From Fidelibacterota bacterium (GTDB taxonomy: Bacteria > Pseudomonadota > Alphaproteobacteria > Rhodospirillales > Rhodospirillaceae), in contig CAMDOZ010000012.1 of the NCBI GenBank assembly GCA_945903705.1, positions 1-35,340 of the forward strand: a stretch of 35,340 bases of DNA. Reading direction: 5' to 3'. Below the pieces are notes generated by a model that did no database searches, was not told the DNA's origin, and saw nothing but the letters and a program-made list of their open reading frames with translations. Each line of letters begins with the position of its first letter. The stretch's first letter is position 1. A program made the translations under genes and the position numbers. Shown here piece after piece: positions 16,243 to 22,125 of this stretch.

Positions 16243-16950
16243 ATGTTGCAGTCGGTCCCTGGAACTCTCGCAAAAAACCACGCTTCGGCGTCACACGCTT
16301 CGACGTCATGGGCGAAGGACGCATACGTTCCGGTCGCCCTGGAGCTGCTCGCGGGCTCCGGTACACGCATCACCGTCAAGCGCGGCCAGGAAATCTTTGC
16401 CGAAGGGGCTTCCGCCGAGACCTGTTACCGGCTCGTGGACGGAAGCGTGCGCCTCGTGAAGCTGATGGCCGACGGCCGCCGTCAGGTGTGCGAATTCGTG
16501 AAAGCCGGCGATTTGCTCGGCTTCGAAACCGACGAAGAACACTATTTTTCCGCCGAGGCCGTGAGAGATTGCACGCTCATACGCTATCCCCGCCGCGCGG
16601 TGGAAACCTTGCTCGCCGACGACAAGGCCTTCGCCCGCCATGTCCGTCAGATCACCGCCCGCGGACTGCAGGACGCGTATCAGCGCATGGTGCTGCTCTG
16701 CCACAAGTCGGCACAGGAGCGCATCGCCTGGTTCCTTCTGGAAATGGCCGACGGCGCCGAGAACGAGGGTGGTTCCATCTTCCTGCCGATGACCCGCACC
16801 GACATCGCAAACTACCTCGGCATGGCCATCGAAACGGTGAGCCGCGTCCTGGGCCAGTTCAAGCAGAACGGCGCCATCGAGCAAAAAAGCCTCAACCGTA
16901 TCCAGGTGATGGATCGCGACGCACTCGAAGCCGTGCGCGGCGAGGTCTAA
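16243..16950 (+). CDS. fixK: Crp/Fnr-family regulator, FixK-like
   Basis: 235 residues from ATG 16243, chosen because GAGGAG (16231-16236) lies at good distance upstream; ATG 16225 is an alternative. A cyclic-nucleotide-type beta-barrel (about 35-140; ITVKRGQEIFAEGA, DGSVRLVKLMADGRRQVCEFVKAGDLLGF) leads via a dimer helix to an Fnr-type helix-turn-helix: LPMTRTDIANYLGMAIETVSRVL, with the E-x2-S-R recognition pattern. The N-terminus lacks the Cys cluster of Fnr, so it should not carry an iron-sulfur cluster, as in FixK. It is divergent from fixL, fitting the classic FixLJ-to-FixK cascade for microaerobic genes such as cbb3 oxidase. No fixNOQP genes are in the window. Confidence 0.87.
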   Translation: MLQSVPGTLAKNHASASHASTSWAKDAYVPVALELLAGSGTRITVKRGQEIFAEGASAETCYRLVDGSVRLVKLMADGRRQVCEFVKAGDLLGFETDEEHYFSAEAVRDCTLIRYPRRAVETLLADDKAFARHVRQITARGLQDAYQRMVLLCHKSAQERIAWFLLEMADGAENEGGSIFLPMTRTDIANYLGMAIETVSRVLGQFKQNGAIEQKSLNRIQVMDRDALEAVRGEV

Positions 16951-16984
16951 GACAAAGTTTTCATAGCTTCGGCGGGGGCCGGGC

Positions 16985-17030
16985 AAAATGGGGTCATGCC
17001 GCTTTAAGCGCGTGACCCCATTTTCTTTTT
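16985..17030 (+). terminator. Strong rho-independent terminator after fixK
   Basis: A perfect 12-bp stem, AAAATGGGGTCA (16985-16996) with TGACCCCATTTT (17013-17024), is followed by CTTTTTT. The loop itself contains a small hairpin CGCTT-T-AAGCG (17000-17010). It lies 34 bp after the fixK stop. Confidence 0.85.
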
Positions 17031-17655
17031 TGTGACGCCTGCCGGGTGGGCAGTAGCCTGCGTCCGACATCGTTCGGGTGGCAGGCGAGGCGGGCGCCAG
17101 CTTCGGCGCCGGCATGCCCGATGCTGACGATGAGTGCGCCGGCGCAGAACAGCCCTTGTTGCGACTTTAAATGCGCGAGCGCATGTTGCGCGCGGGAAAC
17201 GAATCCACTCTGACCCCCGAAGCTCCCTTAAGCTGAAGGCGTGGGGTTCCGCCGCGATTCATCCGCATATCGTCCGCATCGAGGTCCGCATGAAGAGCGC
17301 GGAGTAACGCGTTGTCGCGACGGAGCAATCGCTTCGTCCGCATTCTCCGCATCCTCCGCACGGCGTTTTTTCAGACTCTGCTTTTTTTCCAATGGAATCA
17401 ATGCAGGCATAAAAAAGCCGCGCAATTGGCCGCGCGGCGTCGGACAGGCAAAGGACACGGTATATTTAGAGCATCGCGCCAATGCGATTTTTCGTCAAGG
17501 AAATTGCTCACCGTCAGAGTGACGCATTCTTGACTCCTGCCCGCTTTGCTTTCACGCTTTGCCGACTGCCGGACATACGGGCCGGCCATTCCTCCCATAC
17601 CGCCAGATAATTCGGGCTGGCTGCATATTCACATCAAAAGGGAAGGAGACCGCGC
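17031..17655. other. Non-coding stretch with an orphan minus-strand terminator
   Basis: About 625 bases without a gene I can support; short ORFs on both strands are unlike any protein I know and overlap each other. Visible elements are a terminator-like hairpin facing the minus strand at 17411-17438 and a hairpin ATCGC/GCGAT with five T (17473-17492) beside TTTAGAGCATCGCGC, a possible remnant of a dispersed palindromic repeat. An AAGGAG ribosome-binding site at the right end serves the cyclase gene. The stretch 17025-17400 shows nothing further. Confidence 0.5.
17411..17438 (-). terminator. Orphan minus-strand rho-independent terminator
   Basis: GCCGCGC (17417-17423) pairs with GCGCGGC (17432-17438). 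On the minus strand the stem is followed by six T (complement of 17411-17416). No convincing minus-strand gene lies to its right before the cyclase gene starts at 17656, so it may end a small RNA or a short transcript from the cyclase promoter region. Confidence 0.5.
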
Positions 17656-18207
17656 ATGTCCTATTGGACAGATTTGCGCCTGCCGACGGAGCGCGAACTT
17701 ATCGTCGGACTATATGATCTCACCGCTTACACGGCCTACTGCTTGCATGCCGAACCGGCGCAAGCGCTCGACCTCATGACCCGTTACTGCGCTCTATCCG
17801 CCGAAATCATTCACGACGCCGGCGGCTGGTTCGTCAAAGGAATCGGCGATGCAGGCCTGTTCGCGTTTCCGGCGGACCTCGCCGACCAGGCAGTCGAGGC
17901 CGCGTTCAAGCTGCAAGAGGTCGGCGATCCGTGGCTCGCGCGGGAAAACTACAAGGGCCGCGTGCGAACGGTGATGCACATCGGGCCTGTCGCCATCGGC
18001 CGGATCGGCGCGCGCGGACGCGAGCAACTGGACATCATCGGAAAGACGGTCAACATCGTCGGCGCGCGGCGTATTGACGGCACTCTCGCCGTCACGCCCG
18101 AGCTTTTCCGCAAACTGTCGAGCGCCGGCAGGCAGCACTTCAAGAAGCACACACCGCCGATTACATATATCGGTGTCGACGATCCGCGGCCGAAACCGGG
18201 GCGCTGA
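17656..18207 (+). CDS. Class III adenylate/guanylate cyclase, catalytic domain only
   Basis: 183 residues; ATG 17656 with AAGGAG nine bases upstream. The protein is just one cyclase homology domain. Metal-binding Asp21 is in GLYDLTAYT and Asp65 in KGIGDAGLFAFP; Lys61 and Asp126 (LDIIGK) occupy the purine-selecting positions, with Lys suggesting ATP. Asn133 and Arg138/139 in TVNIVGARR match the transition-state residues. A catalytically active homodimer is therefore plausible. No sensor domain is fused, and no membrane segment is seen. The 3' part, from base 17917 on, is duplicated at 20257-20597. A lower-GC glycosyltransferase-like gene follows after 186 bp. Confidence 0.85.
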   Translation: MSYWTDLRLPTERELIVGLYDLTAYTAYCLHAEPAQALDLMTRYCALSAEIIHDAGGWFVKGIGDAGLFAFPADLADQAVEAAFKLQEVGDPWLARENYKGRVRTVMHIGPVAIGRIGARGREQLDIIGKTVNIVGARRIDGTLAVTPELFRKLSSAGRQHFKKHTPPITYIGVDDPRPKPGR

Positions 18208-18258
18208 GAGTTTTGACAGCCCGGCGGGGACACATGGCGCCTCGCCGGCGAGCGGGGC
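17917..18258 (+). repeat. Direct repeat, left copy (3' part of the cyclase gene plus downstream bases)
   Basis: This segment matches 20257-20597 at a constant 2340-base offset up to about 18194, then with a one-base deletion in the right copy. By eye there are about 14 mismatches in the 264 bases 17917-18180. Homology begins abruptly at base 17917 inside the cyclase ORF and fades after 18258, about 50 bp past its stop. Confidence 0.93.
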
Positions 18259-18393
18259 AGATGTCCCTGTGGGCGGCAATTGTGTTCGAGCCCCTACGGT
18301 CGTATTCTTCCATCACCATACGCAGCGAATTTGGCTAGTCTCGCCCTACTATCGAAGTTTTGCTTCGAATACTGCGAAGGGAGATGAAGCGCC

Positions 18394-18810
18394 ATGTCGA
18401 CAACTGCACTGTCCGCTTCCCCCAGTGGCGCTTCCCAAAACCCTAACTTGGGTCTGAACCGGCTCGAGAGCGCGGCGCTCGTTGTCGGGATAGTGATTGC
18501 GCATTTGTTCTTCTTCCGGAACCTTGCGCTTCCTTTAAGCTACGACGACTCTGGTTACGCCGAGGCGGGCCGCGACATCCTCGAGAACGGCCTTTTCAGC
18601 AATTTCCACGAATCACAGATTCGCACCTACGCCTACCCCTTGTTCCTCAGCTTGCCGCACTGGGTCAGCGATTTAACCGGCGCGCCGTTCCGCGGCACCG
18701 TATTCGCCCTCCACTTGCTCATCTATTTTTCCGCGGCTGCATTTTTACGCGTCGAGATCGGCAAACTGAAGGGGGGGGGCGCGGGCTGTGTTTTGCGGCT
18801 TGGCCCTTAA
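18394..18810 (+). CDS. Membrane glycosyltransferase-like protein, N-terminal part (frameshifted)
   Basis: 138 residues before a stop caused by a shift in the nine-G run at 18771-18779. An N-terminal membrane segment (LVVGIVIAHLFFFRNLALPL) is followed by SYDDSGYAEAGRDILENG, the acidic first-loop motif of GT39/ArnT/PMT-type glycosyltransferases that use polyprenyl-phosphate sugars. A second membrane segment (VFALHLLIYFSAAAFL) then leads into the G-run. After the run the frame reads only about 11 unrelated residues to a stop. With eight G instead of nine it would continue into the ORF at 18788-20212 as one protein of about 605 residues. A GGGAG lies upstream of the ATG. Confidence 0.65.
   Translation: MSTTALSASPSGASQNPNLGLNRLESAALVVGIVIAHLFFFRNLALPLSYDDSGYAEAGRDILENGLFSNFHESQIRTYAYPLFLSLPHWVSDLTGAPFRGTVFALHLLIYFSAAAFLRVEIGKLKGGGAGCVLRLGP
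18771..18779 (+). repeat. Run of nine G inside the glycosyltransferase-like gene
   Basis: Nine consecutive G break the frame between the two halves of the membrane protein. Losing one G (or gaining two) joins them: the reading becomes K-G-G-A-R-A-V-F and runs on into the downstream frame. It may be a phase-variable tract, a true mutation or a sequencing error. Confidence 0.9.
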
Positions 18811-20212
18811 TTTCTATGCCCTCCTCTATATCTCTGAAGTATTGACGGAGAGCCTGTCTCTCAGCCTCCTGTTCGTCGCTGCAGGCAGCTGGCTCTGGCT
18901 CCAGCGCGAACCGCGCCGCCTTCCTTCACTATTGATCGGCTCGGCTGCCGTTGCGGCTGCGGTGATGATACGTCCGGCAAACCTGTTCCTGCTCGGCTCG
19001 TGGGTCATCGGCTGCGGCATCGTGTTCGCGCCGCTCCTAGAATCGCGTCGTGGCGTTGTCACAGCTTCCGGCCGAATGATGATGGTCGCGTTCGTCTTCA
19101 GTGCAGTGTTTTTTCCTCAACTGATCAATAATGTCCGCCACTGGCAGCAATACACTCCTCTGATCGCAAGCAACCTGCAAGATAAACAGCAGCATTGGGG
19201 CATCGACTGGCTCAAATACGGAACGTCGGTTCCGCCGGTAACGACCGCGCAGATCTTCTACGACAACCCTTTTGCCAAAAACACGTCCGTCAAGGAGCTG
19301 TCGCCGCTGAGATGGTATTTCGATCATCCCGGTCGCGGAGTTCTCACCATTGCGCTCCACCTCTTCAATATGACCGACCAGGATTTGGTCTTTACCTACG
19401 CGCGCGACCTTCACCCTTGGTATCGCGTTCCACATACGCTCTTGAACCACGCCGTCGTCGGGTTAGGACTCTTGGGATTCTTCCTATGGTGGCGGAGCAT
19501 AGTACAACGGCCTGAGCGGGCAGACCTCGAAGCCGCTACAGCACTCACGATACTCGCGCTCTCCGCCTGCGCCATTTATGCCACGACATTGGTTGAAATG
19601 AGATTCGGACTAACTTTGTTGTCCATTCTCTTCCCCTGTGCCGTCTTTGCAGCACTGCGTCTCGTCGCGATGGAGAAACGAAGTATAAAGTTCGCGGGAG
19701 TGGCGTTCACCGTAGCTTATGCCGTCGGCGGGCTTCTGCTGTCGACATGGGTGAGAAGTCAGTCTATCCACCTCCGGCTACCGCATGGGGCGTTTGATTT
19801 GAAACTGGCCATGGTCGCAAGCGGGCAAGGCTTGCCGTATCCACCCGACCTGCTTCCCAATGGCGCTATCTTTGCCCATCCGCCCACACTGTTGACGCTG
19901 GACGTACCGGCGAATGCGCGCCAGCTTGCATTTGCGTACGGCTTCTTGCCTAAGGCCTATTCCGAAGGTGGCGCGACGACAGGCGCCTGTTTCCGCGTAA
20001 GCGCAGAAACGGCCAATGGTCCGCAACTATTGCATGAGCGCTGCCTCAGGCCGACGGCCGTACCGGCGGACCGGGGTAAAATGGAGGTCAGCATGCCACT
20101 TCCGGATCCCCGCCCAGGGCGCGTGATATTTGAAACGATGATTGGAAATGGTCCCGAGTGGGATTGGGTTTTCTGGGATGATGTCTCATTTCCTGAGGAG
20201 CTATCGAACTAG
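18788..20212 (+). CDS. Membrane glycosyltransferase-like protein, C-terminal part (frameshifted)
   Basis: 474 residues from a GTG that is probably not a genuine start, since this is the continuation of the gene beginning at 18394. It has many membrane segments (LALNFYALLYISEVL, SLSLLFVAAGSWLWL, a VMIRPANLFLLGSWVIGCGI pair, MMVAFVFSAVFFPQLI, VVGLGLLGFFLWW, a LTILALSACAIYATTL pair, FTVAYAVGGLLLSTWV). A soluble C-terminal domain of about 130 residues follows, with two Cys and EWDWVFWDDVSF near the end. The layout fits GT39/GT83-like lipid-linked sugar transferases, but substrate and acceptor are unknown. Base composition is visibly lower in GC than neighbouring genes, suggesting later arrival. 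It is flanked by copies of the cyclase 3' end. Confidence 0.65.
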   Translation: MFCGLALNFYALLYISEVLTESLSLSLLFVAAGSWLWLQREPRRLPSLLIGSAAVAAAVMIRPANLFLLGSWVIGCGIVFAPLLESRRGVVTASGRMMMVAFVFSAVFFPQLINNVRHWQQYTPLIASNLQDKQQHWGIDWLKYGTSVPPVTTAQIFYDNPFAKNTSVKELSPLRWYFDHPGRGVLTIALHLFNMTDQDLVFTYARDLHPWYRVPHTLLNHAVVGLGLLGFFLWWRSIVQRPERADLEAATALTILALSACAIYATTLVEMRFGLTLLSILFPCAVFAALRLVAMEKRSIKFAGVAFTVAYAVGGLLLSTWVRSQSIHLRLPHGAFDLKLAMVASGQGLPYPPDLLPNGAIFAHPPTLLTLDVPANARQLAFAYGFLPKAYSEGGATTGACFRVSAETANGPQLLHERCLRPTAVPADRGKMEVSMPLPDPRPGRVIFETMIGNGPEWDWVFWDDVSFPEELSN

Positions 20213-20256
20213 CGTTCCGGGGCCTGCCTTTATGGGATCGTCATCTGCGGATCTTT

Positions 20257-20597
20257 GAGGTCGGCGATCCGTGGCTCACGCGGGAAAACTACAAGGGTCG
20301 CGTGCGAACGGTGATGCACGTCGGGCCGGTCGCCATCGGCCGGATCGGCGCGCGCGGACGCGAGCAACTGGACATCATCGGAAAGACCGTCAACATCGTC
20401 GGCGCGCGGCGCATTGACGGCTACCTCGCCGTCACGCCCGAGCTTTTCCGCAAACTGTCGAGCGCCAGCCGACAGCGCTTCAAGAAGCACACACCGCCGA
20501 TTACATACATCGGTGTCGACGATCCGCGGCCGAATCGGGGCGCTGAGAATTTTAACAGGCCGGCGGGGACACAGGACGCCTCACCGGTGAGCGGGGC
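20257..20597 (+). pseudogene. 5'-truncated second copy of the cyclase gene
   Basis: It corresponds to residues from about 88 to the end of the intact cyclase at 17656-18207, at about 95% nucleotide identity by eye. It keeps the GKTVNIVGARRIDG stretch but lacks both metal-binding Asp residues. A one-base deletion near the end (CGAATCGGGG versus CGAAACCGGGG) shifts the last four codons, so the frame runs on to 20712. It cannot encode an active cyclase. The unrelated 44 bases before it follow the glycosyltransferase-like stop. It forms the right arm of a direct repeat around that gene. Confidence 0.85.
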
Positions 20598-20747
20598 CGG
20601 CGGAAATCCCGCAATTCGGCGGTCTAACCTCGCCGACCGCGATCGTGCTGCCTCGTCACAGGAAATTCAGGCGTGCGGACGGAACAAGCTCGGCATCCTC
20701 TCGTTGTCGTAACCAGTTCGTGCAGAGACTTTTGGTTCGCCTAAGAG

Positions 20748-20945
20748 ATGATTGTTATTTCAAAGCTGAAGTGTCCCGGCTGCGGGCATAGCGGAACCGC
20801 CGAATGGAAGGCGTACCGCCCCAAATACTTTCGAGAACTCCAGACGGTTCGCGGGCGGTTCATCCCAAACGCAGGCACGTTTCTGTGTGAAAACTGCCGC
20901 TGCGTCGCTCAGAGTTCGGACGACTCCGTGGGCGCGCGGGCCTAG
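20748..20945 (+). CDS. Small zinc-ribbon protein of unknown function
   Basis: 65 residues from ATG 20748. It has two CxxC knuckles, CPGC (residues 9-12) and CENC followed by RC (residues 47-52), spaced as in a zinc ribbon. Between them is a basic segment (AEWKAYRPKYFRELQTVRGRF). Small ribbon proteins of this size are common in alphaproteobacteria but none has a role I can name. AAGAG upstream is a modest ribosome-binding site. It lies 150 bp after the truncated cyclase copy and is convergent with the next gene, only 7 bp away. Confidence 0.6.
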   Translation: MIVISKLKCPGCGHSGTAEWKAYRPKYFRELQTVRGRFIPNAGTFLCENCRCVAQSSDDSVGARA

Positions 20946-20952
20946 CCCAGCC

Positions 20953-21444
20953 TTACGGCTCCAGCAGACGCCACGCGGGCCTCGGCGCGCCGGATTTGGG
21001 TTTCGGCTTCACGCCGGGCAGCGGCGTTCCATCGAAATCCTCTTCGAGCCACCAGCCGGCGACCCGCCCCGCGCCTTTGGGTTCGTAGGGACGGTCGTAA
21101 TAGAACGTGTAAACCGGCTTGCCCTTATAGGCCCATTGTTTGCGGCCGTCGGCGCGCTGGACGACGATCCAATCGCCCGTCGGCCGCGCCGTGTCGGGCG
21201 CACGTATGATGGGCCACACGGCGGCGCAGACCGCATCGCAATTGGACGTCCCGTTCCCATCGCCCTCGAAGATGTAGAGAGGCAAGAAAGCGGGGAACGA
21301 CTTGTAGACCCATGTGTCGCCGTCTTTGCCCAGAGCGACTTCACCGGGATGATTGGGATTAGGATCCGTGCCCGCCGCGCACAAGACGAACGCAAAGCCG
21401 GCCAGCAGCATCGATCGCGCAATAAGTTTCGCCTTGGACGTCAT
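20953..21444 (-). CDS. COG4315-type secreted protein (Lipoprotein_15 repeat)
   Basis: 163 residues. An N-terminal signal (SKAKLIARSMLLAGFAFVLCAAG) ends near a Cys, but FVLC is a poor lipobox, so export by Sec is likely and lipidation doubtful. The mature part has the repeat seen in COG4315 proteins: PLYIFEGDGNGTSNCDAVCAAVWP (first 20 residues shown are diagnostic: LYxFxxD, C-x3-C, WP), WIVVQRADGRKQWAYKGKPVYTF, then a second copy-like GWWLEEDFDG. Function in the family is not established. It starts 48 bp after a TetR gene on the same strand and is probably cotranscribed and perhaps controlled by it. Confidence 0.8.
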   Translation of the reverse strand: MTSKAKLIARSMLLAGFAFVLCAAGTDPNPNHPGEVALGKDGDTWVYKSFPAFLPLYIFEGDGNGTSNCDAVCAAVWPIIRAPDTARPTGDWIVVQRADGRKQWAYKGKPVYTFYYDRPYEPKGAGRVAGWWLEEDFDGTPLPGVKPKPKSGAPRPAWRLLEP

Positions 21445-21492
21445 GCGCGGAGTCTAGCGCGGACGGAGGCCGATGTCATACGGGCCGAATTG

Positions 21493-22125
21493 CTAAGCGG
21501 CTTCTTCCGCAGGCCGGCGGAAACCCCTGAAGCTCGCGATACGTTCGGCCCGTTCAAGCGCGCGGTCGAGCGCCGCCATGGTCTTGGCAAGATCGGCGCT
21601 GTCGTCGTCTACCCAGGCGCGCAGCGCGCAGAGCAGGACCACTTTCATCCCCTGGATGCGCGCGCAGCCGAGGAGGCCGTCGGGTGAAACGCCGGCGGCG
21701 GCGAGCATGGTGGCGGCGCTTCGGTCGGCGCGGCACAGGGCAAGGGCCGCGGCCGGTGGGTCGAACCGCAGGCCCGAAATGACGGCGCGCATGCCTTCGC
21801 GATCTGCATTCATGGCATCGAAACGCTTCATGGCCACATCGAACAGGCGGTCGCGGACGCTGTCGGCCTCGTCGAGGGCCTTCACGCCGGCCAACATACG
21901 CTGATCGAGGCGGTCGAAGAGACGCGCAACCAGGTGCGCGCGTGTCGGCACCAGGCCGAGGACCGCCCCGAGAGAAAGACCCGCGCGCGCGGCGACCGCG
22001 TTCATGGAGAGATTGCGCCAGCCGGCGGCGCCAGCCTCGGCCAGACCCGCATCGACGATGCGATCGATGTCGGTAGCACTAGTAGCTGCGGGTTTTGAGG
22101 CTTTGTTTGAGGTCTTCTTAGCCAT
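21493..22125 (-). CDS. TetR-family transcriptional regulator
   Basis: 210 residues from the ATG at 22125, which has AGGAGG (22136-22131) five bases upstream; a start at 22140 would place that site inside the gene. The N-terminal helix-turn-helix (about 20-65) reads IVDAGLAEAGAAGWRNLSMNAVAARAGLSLGAVLGLVPTRAHLVARLF, the usual TetR pattern. The C-terminal half is helical and is not one I can tie to a ligand. A COQ9-like reading of the domain is possible (LDAGLAEAGAAGWRNLS and a late W), but Trp-rich COQ9 motifs are weak here. It lies between proC and a secreted-protein gene on the same strand, with a palindromic repeat just upstream. Confidence 0.75.
   Translation of the reverse strand: MAKKTSNKASKPAATSATDIDRIVDAGLAEAGAAGWRNLSMNAVAARAGLSLGAVLGLVPTRAHLVARLFDRLDQRMLAGVKALDEADSVRDRLFDVAMKRFDAMNADREGMRAVISGLRFDPPAAALALCRADRSAATMLAAAGVSPDGLLGCARIQGMKVVLLCALRAWVDDDSADLAKTMAALDRALERAERIASFRGFRRPAEEAA

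Follow-up and report, generated by a model that had tools for sequence, protein, structure and literature searches.

An intact cyclase gene and its 3′ fragment flank a low-GC membrane-protein gene in a variable slot behind fixK

The window, a stretch of 35,340 nucleotides from an uncultured bacterium (genome G000), contains a block in which the 3′ half of a small cyclase gene occurs twice, once on each side of a membrane-protein gene, between a fixK-type regulator gene and a Lipoprotein_15 gene. Our analysis confirms this rearrangement, which is moderately old and apparently specific to the lineage. The case contributes no new mechanism and belongs to an ordinary type of bacterial genome change; it is a readable example of how genes are gained, and half-gene scars left, in a variable slot that follows a core regulator. 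In addition, it documents a small cyclase that resides off its family's usual locus, at differing places, within one sublineage.

Anatomy of the repeated cyclase block

The left gene (17656-18207, plus strand) is an open reading frame that encodes a stand-alone protein of 183 aa and matches Pfam PF00211 (Guanylate_cyc) at 1.1e-5, with 25.6 bits against a cut-off of 21.9. A cyclase profile of five members matched 52 distinct PDB sequences at E up to 0.001, with 5x4t_A as the best (2.5e-13). When the left cyclase was aligned with four homologs from the genus (48-62% identical), D21, K61, D65, D126, and N133 were invariant, which we take to be the catalytic set comprising the two metal Asp residues, the Lys/Asp pair, and the Asn. 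By its sequence, the left gene is a class III nucleotidyl cyclase, as the sequence-only reading had proposed. It shares its profile match with known class III nucleotidyl cyclases (PF00211; the PDB matches include photoactivated adenylyl cyclases), whereas, compared with the class III cyclases in the PDB, the cyclase described here is a stand-alone protein of 174-183 aa that lacks a sensor domain.

The two copies form direct repeats on the plus strand, at 17917-18258 and 20257-20597, with an overall identity of ~93-94%. The left copy comprises the 3′ half of the cyclase and 51 bp beyond its stop, and the right copy is a 3′ fragment (codons 88-179) with no start codon and a shifted tail. The main block (17917-18200 and 20257-20540) extends over 284 nt at 94% identity with an offset of 2340, and the second block (18194-18258 and 20533-20597) over 65 nt at 88% identity with an offset of 2339; there are two offsets because, in the alignment of both copies, the right one is one base shorter close to the gene end. 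The earlier reading had placed the repeats correctly and had recognized both the missing 5′ half of the right copy and the one-base difference near its end, and its values of 95% identity and a uniform distance of 2340 bp are corrected here. The homology starts mid-gene, at left codon 88, and stops 51 bp beyond the left stop; 7 of these 51 post-stop positions differ between the copies. This tail folds no better than shuffled sequences (z of -0.05 and 0.45), and no Rfam family was found in the window at gathering scores. Since the right fragment begins at codon 88, D21, K61, and D65 are absent from it; its reading frame stays open to 20712, and the frame at 20302-20712 has no Pfam family match. 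Unrelated direct-repeat families (D5-D13) occur in the same 7.5 kb, with units of 20-28 nt and copies that are 71-85% identical.

Between the repeats lies a gene that the sequence-only reading had treated as a single frame, and it is in fact split in two. The first part occupies 18394-18770 on the plus strand and is 52% identical to the N-terminal part of a paralog, and the second part occupies 18788-20212 on the same strand; the frames are joined at a run of nine G (G9, 18771-18779, plus strand), the longest homopolymer in the window. This run could be a slippage site, the mark of a real frameshift, or a consensus error. The intact paralog (G000:C7, L037:8463-9842, minus strand) is 62% identical to the second part over the residues 1-329 of the latter. 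In the second part, residues 341-469 match sequences at G012:C171 and G002:C159, and residues 351-465 more weakly match G046:C12 (61 genomes, E up to 0.001). In a search of 297 genomes of the order at E up to 1e-15, the profile of the membrane protein was matched in G000, G002, and G012 only; in G002 and G012, the match lies in the C-terminal domain. A single-sequence model of the second part, of low confidence (mean pLDDT 45), consists of helices followed by a beta-rich C-terminal domain.

The reported low GC of this gene held up in a comparison with 16 neighboring genes that we selected as a reference: its GC is 57.0-57.1% versus 60.3-67.4% in the neighbors, and its codon adaptation, scored with a codon table derived from those same 16 genes, is 0.51-0.58 versus 0.61-0.80. 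At third codon positions, the first part has a GC of 0.730, which is not below all neighbors (lowest, 0.715). The paralog, at another locus, has a similarly low GC of 58.8% and a codon adaptation of 0.58; therefore, low GC may be a trait of this membrane-protein family.

As a candidate identity, a GT-C type membrane glycosyltransferase was considered and found no support, with no matching glycosyltransferase family or solved structure in Pfam, NCBIfam, or the PDB. Neither part of the gene matches a Pfam family, the second part and the paralog remain unmatched in Pfam even at E up to 1, and the paralog has no match in NCBIfam. In the PDB, four sequences were retrieved at E 0.12-0.29, all aligned to the C-terminal region and none of them a glycosyltransferase. 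The label "glycosyltransferase-like" given by the sequence-only reading is thus unproved, and we refer to the product as a membrane protein.

The slot behind fixK and the usual locus of the cyclase

The left border of the slot is the fixK-type Crp/Fnr regulator gene (16306-16950, plus strand; Pfam Crp, HTH_Crp_2, and cNMP_binding), which is preceded by genes for a PAS histidine kinase and a response regulator. The last left-side sequence common to the relatives is a short element at 16965-17035. On the right, synteny with G005 resumes at a small Cys-rich ORF (20748-20945, plus strand; 75% over 125 bp), for which neither Pfam nor NCBIfam gave a match, and the border is formed by a Lipoprotein_15 secreted-repeat gene (20953-21444, minus strand; PF03640) conserved in G002, G005, and G012. 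Beyond it follow a TetR-like gene (under Pfam's cut-off), proC, and a YbjN gene.

We searched for fixK and proC in 12 relatives from the genus and found both on one contig in five: G002, G003, G005, G007 (with a partial proC), and G012. G006 carries them on different contigs and was left out of the count, and the other six have no close fixK match. None of the five relatives with contiguous flanks has a cyclase between fixK and proC. In G012, the fixK and lipoprotein homologies are separated by <20 bp, and in G005, ~240 bp precede the small Cys-rich ORF; the slot holds a TPR-methyltransferase in G002, a methyltransferase in G007, and a short ORF in G003. Judging from these arrangements, the space between fixK and the lipoprotein gene is a variable slot where genes come and go. 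Because no cyclase is present in any of the five, the block from ~17036 to ~20747 is particular to G000 among them, and the two-copy block looks lineage-specific. A site with one cyclase copy, which the sequence-only reading had expected in close relatives, did not turn up. Nor did the two-copy arrangement that it had named as the sign of an old tandem duplication: among 73 genomes of the family, G000 alone has two cyclase matches at E up to 1e-20.

Full-length relatives of the cyclase are present in 12 of these 73 genomes at E up to 1e-20. In eight genomes (G001, G008, G042, G067, G090, G091, G092, and G096), the cyclase occupies a native site, which is characterized by a metallopeptidase gene and/or a Sir2 gene with a small phosphatase gene as neighbors; G090 has the metallopeptidase side only, and G091, G092, and G096 keep the other neighbors without a metallopeptidase match. 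The native site of G000, G002, G007, G012, and G089 lacks a cyclase match, and in G014, a search for the metallopeptidase of the native site found none. The off-site cyclases of G000, G007, G014, and G089 group together at 86/86, which is under the 95/80 mark of the tree, with no resolution within the group, and the native-site cyclase of G008 neighbors this group at 97/94.

Two further observations were made on these loci. In G006, a 3′-terminal cyclase remnant lies at the native site (L098:2899-2964), a parallel loss. In G014, the cyclase (L034:5677-6213) sits immediately upstream of a DUF47/PhoU_div-PHO4 phosphate transporter pair.

Age and origin of the two copies

Over 90 codons, the repeat copies differ with a dS of 0.125 and a dN/dS of 0.24, and the proC genes of G000 and G012 differ with a dS of 0.67. 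A dS of this size means that the copies are not a fresh duplication of one allele, and the comparison with proC indicates that, provided gene conversion has not reset them, they probably diverged later than the separation from G012, though not recently. At the 14 coding nucleotides that differ between the copies, outgroups side with the right fragment seven times and with the intact left copy three times, with four ties; the polarization is weak because there are only 14 such differences. At the amino acid level, the fragment is as close as or closer than the intact copy to the proteins of G007, G014, and G089 and slightly less close to that of G008 (0.582 against 0.604). Faster decay of the fragment was considered and set aside, as there is no clear excess of change in it. 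Within the limits of these small numbers, the absence of a clear excess suggests that selection acted on both copies during their divergence, and it weakly favors a related allele that arrived together with the cargo.

The explanation that we prefer, at about even chances, is that a close relative's cyclase allele and the membrane-protein gene joined a resident cyclase by homology. First, the slot would have gained a class III cyclase of the off-site sublineage, after the split from the nearest sampled relatives. Later, DNA from a close relative, which carried a slightly different cyclase allele and the membrane-protein gene, would have joined the resident cyclase. Entry would have been by one crossover if this DNA was a ligated circle or, if it was linear, through homology at one end combined with an illegitimate join inside the resident gene at the opposite end. 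What remained would be an intact cyclase followed by the cargo gene, with the 3′ half of the resident as a dead remnant. What we observed directly is the repeat anatomy, the cyclase-free slot in five relatives, the native site of G000 with no cyclase match, the divergence bracket, and the lack of a clear excess of change in the fragment; we infer that the slot had a resident cyclase, that another strain supplied the second allele, and by which route they recombined. Against this explanation, no genome with a single cyclase in the slot was found. The low GC that the cargo shares with its paralog, the rarity of HFIR (described next), and the donor searches given below, which found nothing, also count against it.

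Both routes have precedents. PMC3240628 describes the formation of a circle that enters by a single crossover and also the one-ended integration of linear DNA by homology-facilitated illegitimate recombination (HFIR), for which it gives a very low rate in E. coli conjugation, 3e-10 per recipient cell. PMC5361080 likewise treats HFIR as rare, several orders of magnitude under homologous recombination, and proposes it for T6SS effector/immunity arrays with displaced remnants. HFIR resembles the arrangement in G000 in having one homologous end, one nonhomologous join, and a remnant of the old locus downstream; however, it is known from transformation and conjugation experiments, whereas here the end state alone is seen. 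Single-crossover, one-ended-homology, and tandem-duplication routes leave the same scar and cannot be separated by it.

A duplication in place is the less probable but still serious alternative, in which the cyclase was duplicated in tandem and the membrane-protein gene was then inserted, deleting the 5′ half of the second copy. This sequence of events accounts for the direct orientation, the shared 51 bp beyond the stop, the dN/dS of 0.24, and a second copy truncated late, and it requires no donor cyclase allele, whereas it does require two events, and none of the 73 family genomes has two full copies at E up to 1e-20.

The sequence-only reading had favored a strict Campbell insertion of a mobile circle, such as a plasmid or integrative element, that carried the cyclase 3′ end and could still be excised. 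We consider this improbable. The intact gene at the left and the 3′ fragment at the right, lower-GC cargo between them, and the miniature of a dispersed unit immediately upstream (17230-17503) fit such an insertion, and Campbell-type single-crossover integration likewise leaves an insert between direct repeats with one gene intact and the other reduced to a 3′ fragment. That anatomy stands; the single-copy relative is missing, and in the frames scanned (17656-21687), Pfam gave no integrase, transposase, or replicon family, so that the circle, at ~2.3 kb, would show neither a replication or integration family nor vector functions in those frames. Moreover, the copies here differ by 6-7%, unlike those of a Campbell-type integration. 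No match was obtained in plasmids, by DNA or by the protein of the paralog. Using two to six short peptide patterns per scan, the membrane protein was not found in viral contigs, and no donor for the cyclase or the membrane protein was found in genome contigs; the misses of these pattern scans count for little because the genome-contig scan also missed the cyclase family that is present in 12 of the 73 genomes. Finally, excision was said to remove the cargo and regenerate a cyclase gene, which is partly right: a crossover between the two copies would excise 2340 bp, but a computed recombinant with the crossover at the repeat start encodes a protein of 238 aa with a different tail rather than 183 aa. 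The same holds across most of the shared stretch, since any crossover upstream of the one-base difference gives 238 aa, and a deletion between the repeats would usually fail to restore the 183-aa protein.

An assembly artifact, in which the contig of a bin joins two strain variants, seems quite improbable. The genome is in 240 contigs, is 93% complete, and may contain strain mixtures, and the G9 run is a possible site of base-calling error. However, the copies lie 2 kb of other sequence apart, their differences are mostly synonymous or conservative, and several of the neighboring genes have long uninterrupted frames that match Pfam families. It is highly improbable that the block acts as a switch, in which repeat recombination drops the membrane-protein gene and gives the cyclase a tail longer by 55 residues while slippage at G9 toggles the membrane-protein gene.

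Elements upstream of the cyclase

The element at 16965-17035 (plus strand), identified by blastn and by alignment to G002 and G005, consists of AGCTTCGGCGGGGGCCGGG and a strong terminator-like hairpin (fold z of -4.25). Its G-rich motif, strong hairpin, and T run are kept in G002 and G005, where it lies about 170 nt and 95 nt, respectively, beyond the end of fixK, compared with about 15 here. The exact 15-nt motif of the element occurs once each in G000, G002, and G005 among six genomes, and at up to one mismatch, its reversed control gave as many or more matches. In G000, the element may be the surviving end of a small RNA that has lost its body.

The gene-less miniature at 17230-17503, to which no strand was assigned, has an 81% copy at G000:C78, and this second miniature sits between two convergent ORFs. 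At G000:C8 and G012:C208, DUF3987 (PF13148) genes lie between ends of the dispersed unit; G012 has partial left ends at six more places, and 2 of 19 genomes of the genus have matches at E up to 0.001. The dispersed unit may be a mobile unit of one gene from which the miniatures are derived.
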